A program made the position numbers and the translations under genes. 64,000 nucleotides of DNA, from assembly GCA_024516035.1 (NCBI GenBank), contig CM044957.1, positions 19,181,031 through 19,245,030 on the forward strand, given 5' to 3'. The DNA is from Bactericera cockerelli. Taxonomy: Eukaryota > Arthropoda > Insecta > Hemiptera > Triozidae. Positions 2,103 to 35,967 of the stretch are shown here, piece after piece. Position 1 is the first letter of the stretch. Each line of letters opens with the position of its first letter. The notes under the pieces were generated by a model. That model had not been told where the DNA came from, searched no databases, and saw only the letters and a list, made by a program, of their open reading frames with translations.

Positions 2103-2417
2103 TTACTGTGTGGGCCAGTGAATGAAATCTGACCATACGGACAAAATTTATGAGAGTTTGTGCTTTACTGTGTGGGCCAGTGAATGAAATCTGACCATAC
2201 GGACAAAATTTATGAGAGTTTGTGCTTTACTGTGTGGGCCAGTGAATAAAATCTGACCATACGGACAAAATTTATGAGAGTTTGTGCTTTACTGTGTGGG
2301 CCAGTGAATGAAATCTGACCATACGGACAAAAATTATTAGAGTTTGTGCTTTACTGTGTGGGTCAGTGAATGAAATCTGACCATACGGACAAAATTTATG
2401 AGAGTTTGTGCTTTACT
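2103..2417. repeat. 62-bp minisatellite, about 5 copies
   Basis: The unit TTACTGTGTGGGCCAGTGAA... recurs with an exact 62-bp period. The first A of TTACTG falls at 2105, 2167, 2229, 2291, 2353 and 2415. Copies are nearly identical, with single substitutions such as GGCC to GGTC, which implies recent expansion or homogenisation. It is non-coding as far as I can see. Confidence 0.95.
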
Positions 2418-2882
2418 GGGTGAATTCTGAATTAGTTCCCTTGTGGAAACCCATTGCCTCCTTTTCAGCTCAATTTTATATTGTTTTACCAACTGCGTTA
2501 GCTACGCCAAATTGTTTTGATGGTATCAAACCATTCAAACCGTAGTAGATTTTTTTGCATTGGTAGGCAAGGCCATTCCATATAGCCACCGTTAATGTAA
2601 GTCAAAATTAAAATTTTCAAATGTTGGTATTCGAGTTTGGTAAGTTACGAGTGTACGTGCGTGCCGTTCGCATTGAATTAATAAAAATTACTTGCTTTTA
2701 AATACTGTTTGGATTCATTCTAAATTAGTGACTCTGCAATTCCCAGGAATACATGTAGTGTTATCTGTCACGGACGGACAGACGTAATTTAGCTGGTATT
2801 AAATAACGGATTTGAAATATGTCATTTAATCCCGGACTTATCTATCTTTCAGACCGTTGCAATGTTGGATAATGCAATTTTA
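2418..2882. other. Unassigned AT-rich DNA
   Basis: I see no gene or repeat that can be supported in this stretch. Confidence 0.45.
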
Positions 2883-2921
2883 TTGTTACGCTTTAATTCC
2901 ATCTCTCTATCCCATCTTGTC

Positions 2922-2957
<36 letters not shown>

Positions 2958-3235
2958 CCCCTCTCTTTTTCATAAAATTATAATTAGTGTCAATTAATTA
3001 TTTTAATTAACATTGTCAAATCTCAAGTCTTCTCTCCTGTCTCCTGTCCTCCTTAATTCTGAAGTGTTCTGTTCCCTTTTGTATTGCCACCCCCCACCAC
3101 CAACTATTCTACTTCTCTCCCCCTCCCTCCCGTCTCATCCTGCATTTGATCGTCTATCCCTTGTTCATCTTGTCACTCTTCTTCACACCTTATTTCTTCT
3201 TCTTCTTTTATTCAACCCATTATAGCTCTTCCCTG
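2883..3235. repeat. Pyrimidine-rich tract with (TC)n
   Basis: A (TC)15 microsatellite occupies about 2925-2954, and C/T-rich sequence continues to about 3230. Short reading frames on either strand here are compositional. Confidence 0.8.
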
Positions 3236-3654
3236 CATCGTATCCTGCACGCTACTGAGAGGAAAACAGATACAGAGATAGAAAGAAAGATGTTGTGAAA
3301 GAGAAAGTGGCAAAAAAGATAGATAATTTTGAGAAGGAAGAAAGAAGAGAGGATTTTGAGAAAGAATTTTCTGGAAAAGTCTTCGAAAGACTTTGAGAAA
3401 ATTTGATTCGTCGCCAAGTTCCAAGTTTTTTCCTAAGTAGTTTTTCTCGCGACAGAAATACTATAGCTATAATTTCTGCCGTAATACTTGAAGTGTTTGT
3501 CGTCTACTGCTTGTATGTTGTAGGATATTGCGACAGTAATATTTCTTGTATTGAGCAGCCGTTAACATAATGACGCATGAAGGCTTTCTTCTCTCCATGT
3601 CATATAAGCCTTTTAAAGTTTTCTTTTTAGGTAGTCTGTAGTTGTGAAAGTTTT
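3236..3654. other. Unassigned, partly purine-rich DNA
   Basis: A GA-rich patch lies at 3255-3390. Overlapping 65-70 codon frames on the minus strand are explained by base composition. Nothing else is recognisable. Confidence 0.45.
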
Positions 3655-4265
3655 TACTTCCGATGAATTTTTAAACTTTAGAAATCGGAAGTATTGTGTT
3701 CGTTTTTGTGAAAAATATATTTTTGTTTGATCCGATTTCAATTTCTGGACGATTCATCATCTCCTGAGCAACTTTGGTTTTGTGTCTGTCTGTCTCTCAA
3801 ATGGATTCCTTGTAACGCGCAAATCTTAGAAACTACTGAACGGATTTCAACGAAATTTGTACCCATATAGGAGACGTACTGTAGATGGTCCCATTTTAAA
3901 TTCATTAACTTCACACGAGCGGTTCTTGGATATAGAGACTATGCATCTGACCTCTAACTTTTTACACGCTTATATCTCGTGAACGGTACTCCCAATTTTG
4001 ATGAAATTATAGTATCAGGGTTTTACATAGTATATTTGTATTTTTTATTTAATTATTTTATATTTGAGCCTTGATATATAAGAAATTGCAAAATATGGGA
4101 GCAAAAATTAGAAAGTAAGGTCTTCTGCCGATACAGATTTTTATTTTATTTTTCCTACCATGTTAAACGATTTTGAAGAGAATCGATTGAAAACTTATGA
4201 AGTGACTTCAGTAAAAAATCTCTGACTGTGGCGTGATTCAGTAAAATATCTCTGATTTTAGCGAT
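3655..4265 (+). mobile_element. Interspersed repeat Z, copy 1
   Basis: This is the longest forward copy of a dispersed repeat that also occurs at 29449-29935 (-), 53301-53840 (-), 58063-58165 (-) and 59794-59930 (+). It begins with a short inverted repeat (ACTTCCGAT ... ATCGGAAGT, 3656-3695). It then carries GTATTGTGTTCG, TTTCAATTTCTGGACG, TGTCTGTCTGTCTCTC, GGATTTCAACGAAATTTG and ATATCTCGTGAACGGTAC. I saw no open protein. The class is unknown. A terminal hairpin is compatible with a non-autonomous rolling-circle element but does not prove it. Confidence 0.65.
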
Positions 4266-11568: not shown

Positions 11569-11661
11569 GATAAAAAGATGAAATTTGTGTCAAAGAAAAC
11601 ATAAGTTTAAGTTATCATATTTGTGTTAATCACTTGTAAGTCCGCCGCCTTTCAAATCAAA

Positions 11662-11716
11662 TTAGACATAGCTCTCATTATCAGTTAGACATAAATGGGA
11701 GCTATGTCTAACTGAT
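11662..11716 (+). promoter_or_regulatory. Alternative hairpins overlapping the ribozyme
   Basis: Two perfect, mutually exclusive stems can form with the 5' part of the hammerhead. TTAGACATAGCTC (11662-11674) pairs with GAGCTATGTCTAA (11699-11711), 13 bp. ATCAGTTAGACATA (11680-11693) pairs with TATGTCTAACTGAT (11703-11716), 14 bp with a 9-nt loop. The second would bury CUGAU of the catalytic core. The complementarity is seen directly; a regulatory role is inference. The 11662 segment also resembles the ribozyme's own 3' stem I strand, so it may be a remnant of a neighbouring monomer. Confidence 0.6.
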
Positions 11717-11755
11717 GAGTCCAAATAAGGACGAAACTAGTCTTAGACTGCTCTC
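11697..11755 (+). ncRNA. Hammerhead ribozyme, type I, minimal stem III
   Basis: All hammerhead core parts are present in order. Stem I 5' strand is GTCTAA (11706-11711), followed by the core CTGATGA (11712-11718). Stem II is GTCC/GGAC (11719-11722 with 11729-11732) around the loop AAATAA. Core GAA is at 11733-11735 and a minimal stem III, ACTAGT, at 11736-11741. The cleavage nucleotide C is at 11742, and the stem I 3' strand TTAGAC is at 11743-11748. Stem I extends past an internal loop (TAT versus T) by GGGAGC (11697-11702) with GCTCTC (11750-11755), including one G-U pair. Predicted self-cleavage falls between 11742 and 11743. Short stem III type I hammerheads are known from Penelope-like retroelements and retrozymes and are thought to work best as dimers; ACTAGT is self-complementary, which fits. 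I found no Penelope reverse transcriptase nearby, so the carrier is unknown. Confidence 0.88.
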
Positions 11756-12066
11756 TAAATCTTTTAAAGTCTATGATATAGACAGGTCAAGCTTTTAATC
11801 TTGTTACTATGAATTAGTCTAGATGACAATGAATTCTCATATTATGAATATATAATTGTTCGAAAATTTACTACTTAGTTTATGTTTTAGCAACAACTCC
11901 TTCTGAGAAATTTTAGACTGGCCAACACCTGATTTGACTTAAGGTGCATCAAATTTAAGCAAGGGATTCTCTGTCTGCAAATATTGAAAGCAATTAGGGT
12001 TTGGAAAACATGAGGGGGTCCCACTGGTGTATGTGCCTCGTTTAATGTAAAATATTCAGCTTTCCA
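11756..12066. other. Unassigned AT-rich DNA downstream of ribozyme
   Basis: This may be the rest of the ribozyme-bearing element, but I see no terminal repeat or coding remnant. Confidence 0.4.
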
Positions 12067-13964: not shown

Positions 13965-16178
13965 CTTCTAGTCTCTCCCCTTCCTTCCCCTCTCTTCTCG
14001 TCTCCCTCTCTCCCCTTCCTTATTCTCTCTTCTCGTCTCCCTCTCTCCTCCTTCCTTATTCTTCTCTTCCTCATTTCTCTTCCTCTCTCCCCCTCCTTAC
14101 TTCCCTCTCTTCTCATCTCCCTCCCTCCTCTCCCTTCTTCCCCTCTTCTTTCTCTCTCCCTCTCCTTCCCCCTTATTTTCCTTCTCTTCCCCTCTCCTTC
14201 CTTATATCCTTCTCTCCTCCTTTCTTATCTTTTCTCCTCTCTCCCTTCTTCGTCTTCCTCTTCTCTCCCCTTCCTTATTCTCTCTTACTCTCTTCTCGTC
14301 TCCCTCTCTCCCCTTCCTTATTTATCTTCTTTCTCGTCTTTCCTCTCTTCCCCTTCCTTATTTTATCTCTTCTCGTCTCTCCTCTCTCCCCTTCCTTATT
14401 ATCTCTTCTCGTCTTCCTCTCTCCCCTTCCTTTATCCTCTCTCTTCTCTCTTCCTATCTCTTCCCTTCCTCTCCCCCTTCCTTATACTCTTCTCGTCTTC
14501 CTCTCTCCCTTCCTTATTTCTCTTACTCTCCTCGTCTCCTCTCTCCCCTTCCTTATTCTCTTCTCGCTCCCCTTCCCTCCTTCTCTCTCCTCTCTCCCTC
14601 TCTCCCTTCCTTATTTCCACTCTCTTCTCGTCTCCCTCTCCCCTTCCTTATTTCTCCTCTCTTCTCATCTCCTCTCTCCCCTTCCTTCCCTTCTCTCTTC
14701 ACGTATTCCTCTCTCCCCTTCCTTATTCTCTCTTACTCATCTTCTCGTCTTCCTCTCTCCACTTCCTTATTTTCTCTTACTCTCTTCTCGTCTTCCTCTC
14801 TCCCCTTCCTTATTTTCTCTTACTCTCTTCTCGTCTTCCTCTCTCCCCTTCCTTATTCTCTCTTACTCTCTTCTCGTCTCCCTCTCTCCCCTTCCTTATT
14901 TTCTCTTACTCCCTTCTCGTCTCCCCTCTCTCCCCTTCCTTATTTTCTCTTACTCCCTTCTCGTCTCCCTCTCTCCCCTTCCTTATTTTCTCTTACTCTC
15001 TTCTCGTCTCCTCTCTCCCCCTTCCTTATTTTCTCTTACTCTCTTCTCGTCTTCCTCTCTCCCCTTCCTTATTTTCTCTTACTCTCTTCTCGTCTTCCTC
15101 TCTCCCCTTCCTTATTTTCTCTTACTCTCTTCTCGTCTTCCTCTCTCCCCTTCCTTATTTTCTCTTACTCTCTTCTCGTCTTCCTCTCTCCCCTTCCTTA
15201 TTTTCTCTTACTCTCTTCTCGTCTTCCTCTCTCCCCTTCCTTATTTTCTCTTACTCTCTTCTCGTCTCCCTCTCTCCCCTTCCTTATTCTCTCTTACTCT
15301 CTTCTCGTCTTCCTCTCTCCACTTCCTTATTCTCTCTCACTCTCTTTTAGTCTCCCTCTCTCCCCTTCCTTCCCCTCTCTTCTCGTCTCCCTCTCTCCCC
15401 TTCCTTATTTTCTCTTACTCTCTTCTCGTCTCCCTCTCTCCCCTTCCTTATTTTCTCTTACTCTCTTCTCGTCTTCCTCTCTCCCCTTCCTTATTTTCTC
15501 TTACTCTCTTCTCGTCTTCCTCTCTCCCCTTCCTTATTCTCTCTTACTCTCTTCTCGTCTTCCTCTCTCCACTTCCTTATTCTCTCTTACTCTCTTCTCG
15601 TCTTCCTATCTCCACTTCCTTATTCTCTCTCACTCTCTTTTAGTCTCCCTCTCTCCCCTTCCTTCCCCTCTCTTCTCGTCTCTCCTCTCTCCCCTTCCTT
15701 ATTTTCTCTTACTCTCTTCTCGTCTTCCTCTCTCCCCTTCCTTATTCTCTCTACTCTCTTCTCGTCTTCCTCTCTCCACTTCCTTATTTTCTCTTACTCT
15801 CTTCTCGTCTTCCTCTCTCCACTTCCTTATTCTCTCTCACTCTCTTTTAGTCTCCCTCTCTCCCCTTCCTTCCCCTCTCTTCTCGTCTCCCTCTCTCCCC
15901 TTCCTTATTTTCTCTTACTCTCTTCTCGTCTTCCTCTCTCCCCTTCCTTATTCTCTCTTACTCTCTTCTCGTCTTCCTCTCTCCACTTCCTTATTTTCTC
16001 TTACTCTCTTCTCGTCTCCCCTCTCTCCCCTTCCTTATTCTCTCTTACTCTCTTCTCGTCTTCCTCTCTCCACTTCCTTATTCTCTCTCACTTCTCTTTT
16101 AGTCTCCTCTCTCTCCCCTTCCTTCCCCTCTCTTCTCGTCTCCCTCTCTCCGCTTCCTTATTCTCTCTTACTCTCTTC
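13965..16178. repeat. 2.2-kb polypyrimidine minisatellite, unit near 43 bp
   Basis: Almost every plus-strand base is C or T. The unit reads CCCCTTCCTTATTTTCTCTT then ACTCTCTTCTCGTCTTCCTC plus a few bases, about 43 bp. Units are irregular at the left (13965-14700) and very regular at 14700-16178. A variant with CTCTTTTAGTCTCC recurs with TTTTAG ending at 15350, 15643, 15850 and 16102 (spacings 293, 207, 252), close to multiples of the unit, so there is higher-order structure. A 470-codon frame at 13938-15350 is an artefact: pyrimidine-only DNA contains no stop codon on that strand. Confidence 0.95.
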
Positions 16179-35896: not shown

Positions 35897-35967
35897 TGCA
35901 TCGTCCGGGAATCGAACCCGGGTCGCCCGCGTGGCAGGCGAGCATTCTACCACTGAACCAACGATGC
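35897..35967 (-). tRNA. tRNA-Gly (anticodon GCC)
   Basis: The minus strand encodes a complete 71-nt glycine tRNA: acceptor GCATCGT paired with ACGATGC, D arm TGGTTCAGTGGTAGAATG containing the A box, anticodon stem-loop CTCGCCTGCCACGCGGGC with GCC in the loop, T arm CCCGGGTTCGATTCCCGG with the B box, and discriminator A at 35897. It delivers glycine to GGC/GGU codons in cytoplasmic translation. All stems pair. Compared with the usual animal tRNA-Gly(GCC), the innermost acceptor pair is T-A where G-C is usual (my recollection of the consensus). A double change that keeps pairing argues for function, as does the T7 stop 3 bp downstream. Confidence 0.95.

Follow-up and report, generated by a model that had tools for sequence, protein, structure and literature searches.

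A hammerhead ribozyme motif in the window, as we refer in the following to the whole 64,000-nucleotide stretch of Bactericera cockerelli DNA that was analyzed, is real, and its carrier is a dispersed repeat family, designated family A. The feature is probably the relic of a small non-coding hammerhead retroelement, an animal non-LTR retrozyme, that was copied by the machinery of a Penelope-like element (PLE). We also lean, by a narrower measure, towards the reading that this is an animal retrozyme family inserted by Penelope-type priming on both target strands, and that the same mark is found on an autonomous PLE of the same genome. If true, this would hint at the machinery that copies retrozymes around animal genomes.

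In a covariance-model search of the window, the motif was matched by the Rfam hammerhead type I model (RF00163) at 40.4 bits (E = 8.3e-7), above the curated cut-off of 34 bits. The core pattern, allowing up to three mismatches, had a single match in the window and none in 100 shuffles. The model search was a check proposed by a first-pass annotation, which had described a complete hammerhead at this place, and both the score and a reading of the sequence bear that description out, part by part (Table 1). The start that it predicted for the 5′-OH product, position 11743, agrees with the location of the cleavage C, after which the window hammerhead would be expected to cleave. The Hammerhead_HH9 model (RF02275) also aligned to the motif over all 77 positions with a score of 40.6 bits; because this is under the gathering score of 52, the motif was not considered a Hammerhead_HH9 member.

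Table 1. Features of the window copy of family A, with positions numbered from the first nucleotide of the window.
Feature	Position	Strand	Basis
Hammerhead ribozyme type I core	11706..11748	+	RF00163 score; stem covariation across three families
Inner stem I	GTCTAA 11706-11711 / TTAGAC 11743-11748	+	Sequence
CTGATGA core box	11712-11718	+	Sequence
Stem II	GTCC 11719-11722 / GGAC 11729-11732	+	Sequence
GAA core box	11733-11735	+	Sequence
Palindromic stem III, ACTAGT	11736-11741	+	Sequence; full pairing possible only between two strands
Predicted cleavage C	11742; cut between 11742 and 11743	+	Sequence
Outer stem I, beyond internal loop	GGGAGC 11697-11702 / GCTCTC 11750-11755, one G-U	+	Sequence; present in minimum-energy fold
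Direct arm: hammerhead and ≈115 nt of body, end AATTGTT, no 31-nt tail	11694..11862	+	Match to other loci
Inverted stub, 32 nt: two short reverse-complement copies of the hammerhead 5′ end	11662..11693	-	Inverted repeats
Predicted hairpin, 11662-11679 with 11694-11711	11662..11711	+	Fold of 11650-11865, z -3.95

The annotation had also assigned a minimal stem III to the motif. This stands as far as the palindromic ACTAGT and the type I assignment are concerned, but a 3-bp hairpin cannot form from the palindrome, which in a monomer is limited to one A–U pair with a CUAG loop. Since the palindrome is too short to accommodate a loop, a two-strand (dimer) hammerhead appears likelier than a monomer. 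The minimum-energy fold predicted for positions 11694–11760 differed from the hammerhead, at −21.2 kcal/mol versus −13.0 kcal/mol when folding was constrained to the hammerhead pairs. Next to the hammerhead, the two inverted repeats of the stub (I2, 18 nt, 94%; I3, 14 nt, 100%) would be what is left of a second arm, or else a trace of strand jumping; a comparable short inverted copy of the 5′ end was seen at another family A locus, L049. In a read-through transcript, the predicted stub hairpin would sequester the 5′ strand of stem I and compete with the ribozyme. Because this hairpin takes up the ribozyme 5′ strand, read-through RNA of the window copy may show no ribozyme activity. Matches to miRNA-like models near the hairpin (mir-1784) fell far under the cut-off and are accounted for by the inverted stub.

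Several other features were observed in the window. Adjoining the element, at 11612–11651, is a remnant of a dispersed repeat, which by eye is tRNA-like and in antisense orientation; a fuller copy of the same repeat interrupts a family A element elsewhere (L063). A strongly skewed tandem repeat, rich in pyrimidines and two kilobases long, occupies 13979–16178, the 470-aa open frame inside it being a by-product, and a good tRNA gene (65.6 bits) lies on the minus strand at 35897–35967.

When the 565-Mb assembly was searched with RF00163, at least 54 matches were found, at least 51 of them above the cut-off, both counts being lower bounds from the best 74 of 85,613 candidates scored. Most of the fetched matches fell into three sequence families according to their stems II and III, with stem III reading ACTAGT in family A, to which the window copy belongs, ACGATCGT in family B and ACAGCTGT in family C. 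We aligned 56 sequences (51 distinct) from the three families, chosen by a core pattern that ignores the stems; a match at L056 was excluded as a false pattern match. Stem III was palindromic in 50 of the 56 copies, with a single departure in the other six. In stems I and II, 89.2% of cells were paired across the families, and sliding the partners by 1–3 columns left at most 34.2% paired. Cells changed on both sides numbered 76, versus 22.0 in shuffles, and the covariation score was 0.364 versus 0.141; none of 500 shuffles reached either value, a comparison that may be inflated by kinship among the aligned sequences. In the same alignment, there was no excess of pairs changed on both sides (7 versus 7.2 in shuffles) or of further pair types (20 versus 18.2). 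The predicted stem pairing is thus backed by covariation among three families of the same genome.

Families B and C showed some arrangements of their own. One family B array, confined to one strand (G000:C7:17218609-17234923; L029, L030), has a spacing of ≈0.7 kb or multiples of this that shortens at the end, and ≈0.7 kb past the array lies a family C hammerhead. A head-to-head family B copy, with one arm longer by eye, was seen at one locus only (L007:1352-1629), and L031:1166-1515 contains a minisatellite with units of ≈23 bp from the first half of the family B hammerhead. A tRNA-derived head on family B, considered on account of a box-like stretch seen by eye, was rejected: ARAGORN found no tRNA in six loci, and Rfam reported none in L001, L003 and L007.

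Family A cores with up to three mismatches were found at 83 sites genome-wide (35 forward, 48 reverse), versus none in a reversed control. The first-pass annotation had recommended a search for other genome copies, and the dispersed nature of the family supports its suggestion of the carrier, either a solo terminal repeat or a non-autonomous retroelement not previously described. As the reference for comparing 81 family A loci, we took an uninterrupted unit of L045; this set covers part of the 83 core sites with their flanks, four exact repeats having been removed and L041, a duplicate record of the window locus, not being entered. A reduced set of 69 loci was obtained by removing 12 segmentally duplicated loci, while L061 and L075, which have partly common flanks (79%), were both kept. 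The element unit is ≈180–250 nt long (249 nt in L045) and carries one hammerhead. When the host PLE protein described below was used as a tblastn query, there was no match in the window, in agreement with the earlier remark that no reverse transcriptase is visible there, nor in the family A loci compared, which have short flanks.

With arms joined only within 120 nt, so that longer interruptions were missed and short stubs such as that of the window were counted as single, 43 of the 81 loci had one arm, 12 had same-strand pieces only and 26 had inverted arms. All 26 inverted pairs were head-to-head, none being tail-to-tail, and head-to-head arms were present in 23 of the 69 loci left after removal of the duplicated ones. 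Tandem copies, the other arrangement for which the first-pass annotation had suggested a search, occur in complete or partial form at a few loci (L045, L058 and L099, the last with hammerheads 196 and 176 nt apart) but not at the window locus. The GAA box had changed to AAA in seven of the 34 otherwise exact family A cores of fetched loci (L045, L078, L079, L081, L082, L097 and L098), three of the seven being duplicates of one another. These copies are expected to be inactive, and perhaps make up a subfamily with a dead ribozyme.

Read outward, many arms stop either at the end of the body (AATTGTT) or after an additional tail of ≈31 nt. Tails were sought with a probe up to 250 nt from the arms. 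One arm was tailed in 20 of the 26 head-to-head loci, counting six in which the other arm was too short to judge, whereas both arms were tailed in none and neither arm in six; the chance of finding no double tail was 0.0019, or 0.0076 for the 17 of 23 loci that remain without duplicates. Where both arms extend as far as the body end (15 pairs), there was one tail in 14, two tails in none and no tail in one (chance 0.0017; 0.0055 without the duplicated loci and 0.0098 also without L042). In two duplicate loci, L042 and L111, another mobile element adjoins the end of the untailed arm, and a tail may lie beyond it. The one-tail class includes L049, with the tail ≈160 nt beyond the arm, and L084, where the tail matches both strands at one place. 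At L042, L056 and L058, differing sequences starting with CAGGGTG or CAGGGCG follow the same GAATATA site of the family A arms; these are probably mobile elements.

Target-site duplications of 10–14 bp, AT-rich, were found in a minority of family A loci. Flank matches with a score of at least 10 were present at six of the 69 loci, three of them head-to-head, versus 0.31 expected from mispaired flanks; at a score of 9, there were 8 versus 0.88 expected, and at a score of 6, a slight excess of 25 versus 20.7. Two duplications, of 13 bp at L065 and 10 bp at L066, were recognized by eye, the automated search having missed them through misplaced arm ends. The partial tandem at L045 is bordered on both sides by a 10-bp direct repeat.

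Inverted arms flanked by AT-rich target-site duplications might also have come about if a hammerhead had been acquired by a fold-back DNA transposon or MITE. However, a terminal inverted repeat should match on both sides, whereas the family A arms are unequal at their outer ends owing to the tail; 43 of the 81 copies are one-armed, and direct tandems occur. We consider this origin highly improbable. Target-site duplications of 10–14 bp also suit LINEs, and another explanation is that LINE machinery mobilizes family A, the inverted arms being products of twin priming. In twin priming, the inverted part begins inside the RNA, whereas both outer ends were at the body end or tail in 15 of the 26 pairs; nor was a poly-A run evident at the arm ends examined. 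Mobilization by LINEs is unlikely on these grounds, even though LINEs are named beside PLEs as candidate retrozyme drivers in a passage of a review (PMC11722881).

Compared with these insertions, the window copy appears to be a relic, consisting of one tailless arm, an intact hammerhead and the 32-nt inverted stub, with no visible duplication. Its direct arm was 88.8–94.1% identical to the best 11 other loci over 135–175 nt. The tail probe had no match at this copy, and no flank match above a score of 7 was found in the search for a target-site duplication.

Open frames of 837–838 aa contain six of the 25 matches given by a genome search for GIY-YIG domains, several being in divergent pairs. 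At L114, two 834-aa open frames that are 99.8% alike stand head-to-head and encode a PLE protein with RVT_1 (5.5e-12) and GIY-YIG (7.6e-6) domains. The protein most similar to it was from the psyllid Cacopsylla melanoneura (63% identity). By eye, the palindrome ATGGCCAT forms part of a hammerhead-like motif in the L114 pLTR, a motif that was not reported by Rfam. A shorter PLE copy, L115, represents the PLE side of the insertion comparison with one complete insertion. Its arms (654–2353 and 2353–4105) are head-to-head, each with a hammerhead-like motif, and a 65-nt tail is present on the right arm only. The arms are flanked by an 11-bp match, ATAAAATTATA, which overlaps the arm ends by 1–2 nt and whose score was reached by 9 of 3430 mispaired window pairs.

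Given the PLE-type insertion structure of family A and the hammerhead-like motif in the host PLE, the copies could be pLTRs, solo or in pairs, that belong to an autonomous PLE family, either extinct here or unsampled, rather than an independent non-autonomous element. Published pLTRs measure 181–218 bp, have an inverted counterpart and may carry a 31-bp tail, which would fit such an origin (PMC3846280, in part). Against it, a relative of the host PLE protein was encoded only in L114 and L115, the loci chosen for PLEs, although the flanks of the other loci are short, and by eye there was no family A core site within ≈200 kb of any GIY-YIG match. Furthermore, stem I of the family A hammerhead is extended and includes an internal loop, which distinguishes this hammerhead from the minimal PLE motifs of a 2020 review (PMC7761336, in part). 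We regard the pLTR origin as doubtful, if less so than mobilization by LINEs.

Returning to a retrozyme copied by PLE machinery, we envisage transcripts of partly tandem units in which cleavage would be carried out by two-strand hammerheads, held together by pairing of the palindromic stem III. The PLE protein, with its reverse transcriptase and GIY-YIG domains in an 834-aa frame, would then open AT-rich DNA, and cDNA would be primed from the 3′ end of the element on both target strands. The product would be two arms that meet at their hammerhead ends, with a ≈30-nt tail on one of them, between duplications of 10–14 bp. This arrangement is seen in part of the copies, and from it we infer the enzyme and the order of the steps; later decay would leave single arms. 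Family A has presumably been transcribed and mobilized, judging from its sequences. The head-to-head polarity, the one-arm tail, the duplications, the host PLE copy at L115 and published PLEs all argue for copying by a PLE. Against the model, the 43 single-arm and 12 same-strand loci among the 81 must be ascribed to one-sided insertion or decay, six of the 26 head-to-head loci are tailless, and few loci have clear duplications. The lack of similarity to the host pLTR, apart from AT-rich or chance-level matches, and the distance by eye of at least ≈200 kb between family A core sites and GIY-YIG matches also weigh against it. The head-to-head product also has one hammerhead per strand, so that cleaving RNAs of either polarity could arise from a single locus. 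The arm polarity, one-arm tail and duplications, together with one host PLE copy, provide a testable structural link between retrozymes and PLEs, and family A copies might serve as natural small substrates for studying PLE priming.

Kinship with the hammerheads of PLEs and retrozymes, proposed in the first-pass annotation, is supported by the family structure and insertion marks; the head-to-head arms, one-arm tail, target-site duplications and competing hairpin lay beyond its reach. Like the animal non-LTR retrozymes described in parts of PMC7229834, family A has a type I hammerhead, is non-coding, has a unit within 170–400 nt, and occurs as dispersed copies, at a few loci in tandem, with duplications of more than 4 bp. 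Assessed on sequence alone, it would be classed with the animal retrozymes. The published retrozymes are described as tandem repeats, however, whereas family A often has head-to-head arms (26 of 81 loci) and seldom tandems; the word "inverted" is absent from the main text of PMC7229834. The satellite hammerheads of newt and axolotl share with family A a stem III of one base pair and a palindromic tetraloop, and cleave mainly as dimers, but they form tandem repeats of 330–350 bp with ≈60,000 motifs of each kind (PMC7229834, in part).

According to passages of the 2020 review, animal retrozyme repeats have no conserved motif pointing to the mobilizing retrotransposon, and PLEs and Terminons are the likely mobilizers on account of their type I hammerheads and co-occurrence (PMC7761336). 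In one open-licence PMC paper on retrozymes and hammerheads, inverted repeats are treated with regard to back-splicing and viroids, and in the parts of this literature consulted we found no description of a head-to-head, one-arm-tail insertion signature in retrozymes. The term "head-to-head" was likewise absent among the matches listed there for non-autonomous Penelope elements and hammerheads. The ribozyme class is already known, and the insertion signature of family A is the part that we have not found described.

That signature has its counterpart in PLEs. In rotifers, some PLEs have head-to-head pLTRs, an optional 31-bp tail on one of them and, in several copies, duplications of 8–10 bp, while other Penelope copies lack the duplication or the inverted pLTR (PMC3846280, in part). 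In a lizard PLE, both target strands are cleaved and extended, as stated in an excerpt of PMC11167929. Family A differs from PLEs in having no PLE-like coding sequence attached, with the host PLE protein as query, and no similarity to the host pLTR, against which families A, B and C gave only AT-rich or chance-level matches. It shares with the hammerhead-like motif of the host PLE a palindromic stem III, and with PLE pLTRs, as partly described in the literature, the head-to-head arms, a ≈31-nt tail on one arm, duplications of ≈10 bp and partial tandems.
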